Source: Bacteroidota bacterium
Lineage (GTDB): Bacteria; Bacteroidota; Bacteroidia; Flavobacteriales; Flavobacteriaceae
NCBI GenBank assembly: GCA_024279425.1
Contig: JAJRRO010000046.1
Coordinates: 124,001 to 188,000, forward strand
Length of the DNA stretch: 64,000 nucleotides
Reading direction: 5' to 3'
A model generated the notes under the pieces. That model searched no databases. It saw only the letters and a program-made list of their open reading frames with translations, and was not told the origin of the DNA. Below are positions 7,189 to 8,985 of this stretch, piece by piece. Within the stretch, counting starts at the first letter, position 1; every line of letters starts with the position of its first letter. The position numbers and the translations under genes were made by a program.

Positions 7189-8985
7189 ATGCAAATTCAA
7201 AGCGTATTGGAAAAAAAAGTAAAGGAAGCAGTAAAATCAATTTTTGGGGTGGATTTGCCCACCGTGGAATTTCAGCCGACCAGGAAGGATTTTGAAGGTG
7301 ACATTACTGCGGTCGTATTTCCCATGCTTCGCTTTGTAAAAGGGAATCCTGAAGTGATAGGAACCCAAATTGGTGAATATCTTCAGGAACAGCTTGATGA
7401 GGTTTCTGGTTTCAATGTGGTTAAAGGGTTTTTGAATATCGTTATCAGCGATGTTTTTTATTTAGATTTTTTCAATTCGATTAAAACCACCAACGATTTT
7501 GGCTGTGTAGCCCATGCTGGTGAAGATGCAGTAATGGTCGAATATTCGTCGCCCAATACCAATAAGCCCTTGCATTTGGGACATATTCGCAACAACTTAT
7601 TAGGCCACTCCGTCGCTGAAATTTTAAAGGCTTCGGGAAAAAAGGTATACAAGACCCAAATCATTAATGATAGGGGTATACATATTTGTAAAAGCATGTT
7701 GGCCTGGCAAAAATTTGGCAAGGGTGAAACCCCCGAAAGCTCGGGATTAAAAGGGGATAAACTTGTCGGGAACTATTATGTGGCCTTCGATAAGACCTAT
7801 AAGGCTGAAATTTCAAAGATGGTGTCCGAAGGGAAAGTAAAAGAGGTTGCGGAAAAAGAAGCACCAATATTATTGGAGGCCCATGAAATGCTCCAAAAAT
7901 GGGAGGCAGGTGATGAAGAAGTAGTTGGCCTTTGGAAAACAATGAACAGTTGGGTATATAAGGGGTTTGATGAAACCTATAAGAACTTAGGGGTAGACTT
8001 TGATCAATTGTATTTTGAAAGCGATACCTATTTATTGGGCAAGGACGTGGTTGCTGACGGTCTAAAAAAAGGAGTTTTCTATAAGAAGGAAGATGGCAGT
8101 GTTTGGATAGATTTGACCGATGACGGACTTGATGAAAAAATCGTCCTTCGATCAGATGGTACTGCAGTTTATATGACGCAAGACATTGGTACTGCCATAC
8201 AAAGGGTTACCGACTATCCCGATATTAACGGAATGGTATATACTGTTGGTAACGAGCAGGACTACCATTTTAAGGTATTGTTCCTAATCTTGAAAAAGCT
8301 TGGGTTCTCCTGGTCAGAAAGCTTACATCACCTGAGTTATGGAATGGTGGACTTGCCAAGCGGGAAAATGAAGAGCAGGGAAGGAACAGTGGTCGATGCC
8401 GATGATTTGATGGATGATATGACTCAAACTGCAGCGACCATTTCACAAGAATTGGGAAAACTGGAAGATTATTCAGATAGTGAAAAACAGGAGTTGTACA
8501 GAATGATAGGGCTGGGGGCTTTAAAATACTATATTCTCAAGGTGGATCCAAAAAAAAGAATTTTATTCAATCCAGAAGAATCTGTTGATTTTCATGGAAA
8601 TACGGGGCCTTTTATTCAATACACATACGCTAGGATACAATCCATTTTAAGAAGGGCAGTACGCCTAGACCTGTCAGGTTTTGAAAACCTGACAGGTCTA
8701 GAAAATGCGATAAAATTACATGCAAAAGAAAAGGAATTGATAAAACAGATCCAATTATTTCCCGAGACCATACAGTCGGCAGCAGAAAATTTCAGTCCAG
8801 CCTTGATTGCCAATTATACCTATGACCTGGTAAAGGAATTCAATTCATTCTATCAGCAGGTTTCCATCTTAGGTGAACCAAACGAACAAAAGAAAATTTT
8901 ACGGGTACAGTTATCCAAAAAAGTTGGGGAGATTATTCAATCTGCCTTTTTGCTATTGGGAATCCAGGTTCCTGAACGAATGTAA
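7189..8985 (+). CDS. argS: Arginyl-tRNA synthetase
   Basis: The class I synthetase of 598 residues attaches arginine to tRNA-Arg in the cytosol. The N-terminal domain contains RKDFEGDITAVVFPML, the HIGH motif appears as HLGHIRNN at about residue 127, and a KMSKS-like loop as GKMKSREGTVV near residue 390. The C-terminal anticodon-binding DALR domain begins near FHGNTGPFIQYTYARIQ and ends at LGIQVPERM. Length and order are normal for the family. Unusual is a perfect 37-bp palindrome at 8665-8701, inside the DALR domain, translated in frame as LDLSGFENLTG in a region that should be a variable loop (residues ~493-504). This looks like an in-frame insertion tolerated by the enzyme. Confidence 0.97.
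   Translation: MQIQSVLEKKVKEAVKSIFGVDLPTVEFQPTRKDFEGDITAVVFPMLRFVKGNPEVIGTQIGEYLQEQLDEVSGFNVVKGFLNIVISDVFYLDFFNSIKTTNDFGCVAHAGEDAVMVEYSSPNTNKPLHLGHIRNNLLGHSVAEILKASGKKVYKTQIINDRGIHICKSMLAWQKFGKGETPESSGLKGDKLVGNYYVAFDKTYKAEISKMVSEGKVKEVAEKEAPILLEAHEMLQKWEAGDEEVVGLWKTMNSWVYKGFDETYKNLGVDFDQLYFESDTYLLGKDVVADGLKKGVFYKKEDGSVWIDLTDDGLDEKIVLRSDGTAVYMTQDIGTAIQRVTDYPDINGMVYTVGNEQDYHFKVLFLILKKLGFSWSESLHHLSYGMVDLPSGKMKSREGTVVDADDLMDDMTQTAATISQELGKLEDYSDSEKQELYRMIGLGALKYYILKVDPKKRILFNPEESVDFHGNTGPFIQYTYARIQSILRRAVRLDLSGFENLTGLENAIKLHAKEKELIKQIQLFPETIQSAAENFSPALIANYTYDLVKEFNSFYQQVSILGEPNEQKKILRVQLSKKVGEIIQSAFLLLGIQVPERM
8665..8701. repeat. Perfect 37-bp palindrome inside argS
   Basis: The left arm ctagacctgtcaggtttt (8665-8682) is the exact reverse complement of the right arm (8684-8701), with one central g. 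It keeps the argS reading frame open. The core acctgtcaggt looks like a dispersed flavobacterial palindromic repeat, here sitting in a coding region. Confidence 0.9.

Follow-up and report, generated by a model that had tools for sequence, protein, structure and literature searches.

What a perfect inverted repeat is doing inside the reading frame of an arginine–tRNA ligase, and how it came to be there, is the question raised by this locus. We addressed it for the whole stretch of DNA analysed (64,000 nucleotides, hereafter the window), which belongs to a 5.27-Mb Flavobacteriaceae genome. The first-pass annotation had reported a perfect 37-bp palindrome lying in frame in argS, in the anticodon-binding domain, where it contributes LDLSGFENLTG-like residues, and this observation held up. 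The assignment of the gene is supported by a TIGR00456 score well in excess of the cut-off of 261.65 bits, and the features of the locus are collected in Table 1. The palindrome, CTAGACCTGTCAGGTTTT-G-AAAACCTGACAGGTCTAG, consists of 18 bp on either side of one central base, leaves the frame unbroken, lies within DALR_1 (the anticodon-binding domain, residues 476–598) and specifies residues 493–504 together with the first base of codon 505. No other perfect palindrome with a centre of 0 or 1 base and a stem of at least 9 occurs in the window, and 20 first-order Markov sequences of window size yielded stems of 11 at most, against the 18-bp arms in argS, which rules out a chance palindrome. Residues 493–511 form a predicted coil between helices 472–492 and 512–522 in an AlphaFold model (mean pLDDT 72.9; ~67 locally).

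Table 1 Features of the argS locus, with positions counted from the first letter of the window
Feature	Position	Strand	Basis
argS, arginine--tRNA ligase, 598 aa	7189..8985	+	ORF; TIGR00456 427 bits; Arg_tRNA_synt_N, tRNA-synt_1d, DALR_1
Perfect 37-bp palindrome, 18-bp arms, central G at 8683	8665..8701	.	Direct sequence reading
33-nt REP unit AGACCTGTCAGGTTTTNAAAACCTGACAGGTCT, 11 codons long	8667..8699	.	0 mismatches to search consensus
Palindrome-made codons 493-504 = LDLSGFENLTGL	8665..8700	+	Translation
12 bp of palindrome centre that the sister species G002 (L130) lacks, in frame, in its argS	8673..8684	.	Sequence comparison; ends ambiguous (repeated bases)

The palindrome is a member of a dispersed family. 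Its arm, ACCTGTCAGGT, matched the genome 26 times on the forward and 28 times on the reverse strand, compared with 0 and 0 matches for the reversed control, and it is therefore a repeat and not a product of chance. A 33-mer consensus located 27 places with at most 3 mismatches, and in the loci fetched around the matches 29 copies departed from it at no more than 4 of their 33 nt; counted apart from these 29 are two 32-nt variants (L010 5915 and L030 1995), a copy with an enlarged centre (L022 4692), half-copies (L011, L027, L028) and strongly decayed copies. The count of in-gene copies that the first-pass annotation had suggested, made on these 29, gave a single case, the argS copy, in frame inside a gene body, a call that is based on open frames of at least 150 codons without annotation, treats small frames over some copies as spurious and leaves room for GTG and TTG starts. 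Seven other copies lie within open frames of more than 150 codons yet ahead of the first ATG (for example, two before an enolase-superfamily gene, L019). Half or truncated copies were also seen at C32:46987, C124:19975 and C129:64965 of the same genome.

Conservation at 52 arm flanks stops at an A at position −1 of the 31-nt core (51/52) and, weakly, a T at −2 (29/52), with G at −3 in 9/52, from which we take the unit to be ~33 nt, or 11 codons; no conserved GTAG foot was found at these flanks. The family hairpin has the sequence GACCTGTCAGGTTTT. When the unit is translated in three frames, one is always closed, another is open only with a central C or T, and the frame reading DLSGF[E/Q/K]NLTGL is closed only by a central T, so that a copy landing in this last frame would leave its host gene readable.

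Four near-perfect copies are concentrated within 3.1 kb of contig C37, around a Y1/RAYT gene (L015 2703–4229) whose locus includes three exact copies. The N-terminal part of the encoded protein matched nearly the whole of NF047646, the model for REP-associated tyrosine transposases (E = 1.9 × 10−13), with 50.6 bits against a cut-off of 80, and the score was likewise below the cut-off in all six RAYT proteins tested, from this genome and five relatives. Its Y1_Tnp score was 22.7 in one search and 25 in another, the cut-off being 23. The HUH (NHYH) and catalytic tyrosine (YIHTNP) motifs of a Y1 nuclease are intact and 61 residues apart; a search of the PDB with the protein gave no match. The other Y1 transposases of the genome were ruled out as partners, as none of the six further Y1_Tnp matches had a copy within 11 mismatches in its 2.2–3.4 kb locus.

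The association extends beyond this genome. Among 62 genomes (12 of the genus, some of them incomplete, and 50 named relatives), this RAYT was present in 8 of 9 palindrome-positive genomes compared to 3 of 53 palindrome-negative ones (Fisher test uncorrected for relatedness, P = 4 × 10−7; P = 1 × 10−5 without the window genome and its sister). One genome (G062) had two palindrome copies without this RAYT, and three of the 62 had RAYT homologues without the palindrome. In 397 genomes of the family, 49 had a RAYT at E ≤ 1 × 10−30, with 56 matches in total. We assembled 39 distinct RAYT loci from 11 loci of the 62-genome survey and the best 30 of the 56 matches (with one overlap, and with L338 duplicating L262), leaving 26 weaker matches outside the set. 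A hairpin of at least 11 pairs stood on both sides of the gene in 26 of these 39 loci and on at least one side in 37, compared with 5 of 78 control stretches of 320 bp taken at locus ends. The arms differ between genomes (TGTC/GACA, TGCA and CACA types), and the outer GACCT...AGGTC is mostly retained.

In the parts of the two reports drawn on here, REPs are described as mainly extragenic units (Bertels and Rainey 2011, PMC3116915) that flank RAYT (TnpA-REP) genes (Nunvar 2010, PMC2817692). Like those systems, the present family consists of short dispersed palindromes (33–37 bp, within the 20–40 bp expected of REPs) that are mostly extragenic (28 of the 29 copies with at most 4 mismatches) and bracket a cognate Y1/HUH gene whose presence is correlated with theirs. 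It differs from them in its small copy number (the 27 places and about 29 copies given above, where more than 100 per genome are usual), in the lack of a GTAG or CGTC tetranucleotide foot, in its near-perfect 31–33 bp hairpin with a one-base centre, and in the fusion of its RAYT to HemF that is described below. We propose that the argS palindrome is, very probably, a REP copy of a flavobacterial RAYT/REP system that landed in frame in a variable loop between two helices and was tolerated there.

Comparison of the ArgS loop among relatives bears on how the copy arrived. We scored 140 distinct loops (L082, L206, L296, L298 and L300 fell outside the count through filters); just four had a clear full, deleted or decayed copy, and the full palindrome was found in the window alone. 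The loop has 20 codons in the window, 17 in six species of the same genus (L120–L124, L126), 33 in another congener (L125) and 16 in the sister species G002, whose ArgS is 95% identical over the part found. In the fragmented assembly of this sister, argS retains the same element less 12 bp, with the frame preserved, and the argS event is probably older than the divergence of the two species. The loops of the six congeners are palindrome-free, unrelated in sequence and not alignable with the window flanks. Given their length, the element appears either to have displaced native codons or to have been accompanied by a deletion. In the comparison with close strains that the first-pass annotation had suggested, as a check on whether the ~12 residues are absent elsewhere, none of the loops scored had the full palindrome, but six same-genus loops are only three codons shorter and the sister keeps a deleted copy; the palindrome does supply 12 codons, but a plain addition of 12 residues is rejected. 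There was no clean empty site among the relatives' loops, and a simple 33-nt insertion is hence not demonstrated.

Outside the genus, decayed copies were recognized in the Pricia lineage, in a Pricia MAG (L058) and a relative (G479), with local alignment scores of 22 and 23 against a reversed-control maximum of 11. Both begin at the same codon as the window copy, and all four copies, in the window genome G000, in G002, in L058 and in G479, begin two codons past an RxA motif. L125 gives a match in the same register whose score of 12 is too low for a call, and the loops of L294 and L084 score 11, equal to the control maximum. A 63-aa ArgS loop probe matched 386 of the 397 family genomes, and reading the loops of its best 30 loci (L194 is the window itself, and L206 was filtered out) added 28 loops without a palindrome of this family. 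In the loops read, we found no ArgS of a distant relative in which the same residues are encoded without the palindrome, the case that would have refuted the first-pass annotation; the similar residues of the Pricia lineage come from decayed copies. In a tree of loop-stripped ArgS whose bootstrap is not settled, the window genome and its sister fall in a clade separate from the Pricia pair, and palindrome-free ArgS of the Zobellia type and of the same genus lie between the two. Such a pattern could reflect two independent gains at a single codon, or else an old insertion followed by losses. In Maribacter halichondriae (L041), the ArgS loop has a different insert, GRSSHSTSLETST, whose DNA holds the inverted repeat GTCGAGCCACTCGAC; this is possibly another repeat family at the same ArgS site.

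The older history, in which one ancient REP insertion, made before the window genus and Pricia diverged, was lost or blurred in most descendants and refreshed in the window lineage by conversion from other REP copies, would explain why the copies sit at one codon and why the net change in length is small. The common register two codons after the RxA motif and the weak match of L125, one point above the control maximum, are in line with it; the separation of the two carrier pairs in the tree, unsettled as its bootstrap is, and the 136 of 140 distinct loops without a clear remnant weigh against it, and we regard this history as rather unlikely. A broader alternative is suggested by the parallel that the first-pass annotation drew with palindromic elements inside Rickettsia genes, namely a protein-invading family adapted to the loops of many proteins. 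The position of the argS copy, in frame, in a predicted loop and in a conserved gene, the open frame of the unit, and the occurrence of copies at the same codon in two separate ArgS lineages all resemble such behaviour, and Rickettsia palindromic elements (RPE) are likewise palindromic, in frame in conserved proteins and tolerated (PMC2229807, in the part considered). The RPE reported there are 105–146 bp long and occupy 19 reading frames, whereas the flavobacterial unit spans 33–37 bp, is tied to a RAYT and places just one of its 29 examined copies within a gene, strongly decayed copies being uncounted genome-wide. On length, host and this fraction we reject a family of the Rickettsia type as improbable: the parallel is an analogy in behaviour and not a kinship, the present family being a RAYT-associated REP family. 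The proposed loop-inserting repeat family survives to the extent that the family exists and one copy occupies a variable ArgS loop, but a specialisation for loops is not supported.

Two further readings concern the argS copy by itself. The fold of the 37-mer as RNA (−27.8 kcal/mol) would suit a pause or attenuation site in the argS mRNA, that is, a regulatory hairpin and not a passenger, yet the core is missing in the sister species and the six other same-genus loops lack a palindrome, which makes a regulatory role very improbable. An error of assembly or annotation might be suspected, as contigs C141 and C264 of the sister genome (L165, L173) end or join at palindrome copies in a way that resembles assembly chimeras; against this, the window copy has argS sequence on both sides and an intact frame, and the sister retains part of the element at the same place, so that we consider an artefact extremely improbable. 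If the frame is translated as predicted, the tryptic peptide of ArgS expected across the REP-encoded part is LDLSGFENLTGLENAIK.

A second coding context for the same repeat emerged from the RAYT loci. In 21 of the 39 distinct loci, which are the best-scoring ones, the RAYT frame continues without a stop into HemF, the oxygen-dependent coproporphyrinogen oxidase; these include the locus on C37 of the window genome as well as L255, L256, L260, L261 and L316–L320. Both domains were detected (by NF003727 and by the sub-threshold NF047646 matches) in the six proteins tested. Open frames of at least 490 aa occurred in 17 of the 56 RAYT matches listed and in none of the 26 unfetched weaker ones, so that the fusions are commonest where the RAYT is closely related to this one. 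Through its DLSGFENLTGL frame, the REP on the 3′ side supplies the predicted linker between the two domains, with a recognisable peptide in 20 of the 21 fusions (much decayed in L319, absent in L332), and in L316, L317 and L320 this peptide is identical to the core of the ArgS insert. Of the 21 fusions, 14 have another codon in place of the ATG of HemF itself (13 scored, L337 by reading) and seven keep it (six scored, L329 by reading). For 10 of the 13 scored losses there is no ATG, GTG or TTG within 25 codons upstream of HemF; the HemF of the window genome has a GTG six codons upstream. We found no published report of a RAYT–HemF fusion in open-access papers, and a fusion through a REP-encoded linker is apparently new.

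The linker REPs also vary as hairpins. Among 18 distinct ones, changes on both sides were seen at 7 of the 15 hairpin pairs; they amounted to 19 cells, where shuffling gave 7.3 on average and reached 19 in none of 500 rounds, and stood far above slid versions. Counts of this kind can be inflated by relatedness, or by conversion from REP copies elsewhere. Further pair types were not raised in number (13 versus 12.3 in shuffles, 218/500). The linker REP of the window genome is decayed, with 9 of 15 pairs, while that of its sister has 14 of 15.

These observations suggest how the argS copy may have arisen. As an HUH/Y1 nuclease, the RAYT would recognise the hairpin in single-stranded DNA, cut it and rejoin it, and copies would spread in this way. 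No clean donor/target pair was seen, nor any target-site duplication, and no clean empty site was found at argS or at C423:34051 of the sister genome; at the latter, the palindrome is present in the sister (46 bp between anchors) and absent in the window genome (12 bp), and the flanks differ. A second site on C423 is common to both genomes and decayed in the window genome. Because the REP 3′ of the RAYT is read as the linker to HemF, selection on HemF would hold that frame open in the resident copy. We tentatively hypothesize, with somewhat less than even confidence, that the RAYT-adjacent REP is under double selection, serving the transposase as a DNA hairpin and linking the two parts of a RAYT–HemF protein whose HemF start is lost in most of the fusions seen, that this keeps one frame free of stops, and that daughter copies are thereby pre-adapted for coding loops like the one in ArgS, in which two lineages have them at one and the same codon.

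By definition, REPs are extragenic, and here one REP family stands in coding frames twice over, within ArgS and, across many genera, as the RAYT–HemF linker. A stop-free linker frame would give a testable reason why REP insertions in genes can be tolerated. If HemF were made only as a fusion, the transposase reading frame would become indispensable to the host. The sections available of PMC6006769 raise as an open question why, and by what means, tnpA-REP genes persist, and an obligate fusion, if true, would be one concrete answer to it.

Insertion of REPs in frame, tRNA synthetases included, is already published. The portion of Di Nocera 2013 (PMC3733652) considered here describes in-frame intragenic GTAG/CGTC REPs, among them copies in tRNA synthetases of X. 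oryzae, E. litoralis and S. alaskensis, and REPs that two Xanthomonas species have at roughly the same position in recB. The argS copy is comparable in being in frame within a gene of this class; it belongs to a different repeat family and phylum, and its peptide doubles as the RAYT–HemF linker. Among the TnpA-Y1 subclasses, as set out in the available sections of PMC6006769, subclass 2.6 shares with the present system its occurrence in Bacteroidetes, atypical flanking structures without a GT[AG]G foot, additional genomic copies and an SS motif, and subclass 2.4 shares REPs inserted inside the transposase gene. The HuH–Y distance of 61 aa sets the RAYT apart from subclass 2.6, with its median of 82, and the NHYH and YIHTNP motifs are nearer to subclass 2.1, reported there without REPs. 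That study discarded unexpectedly long proteins, and fusions would therefore not appear in it.

The region behind the RAYT varies further within the genus. In L256 and L257 (from the same-genus genomes G007 and G004) it is enlarged by in-frame repeats, which in L256 are spaced ~200 bp apart, carry palindromes and make up the linker to HemF; the contig stretch of L257 stops before any HemF. At the 3′ end of hemF in the window genome (L015 4180–4350, compared with L175 of the sister G002), an extra ~140 bp with an intact palindrome alters the C-terminus; behind it lies what appears to be the old end of hemF, and a related stretch is found near L015 5020–5190.
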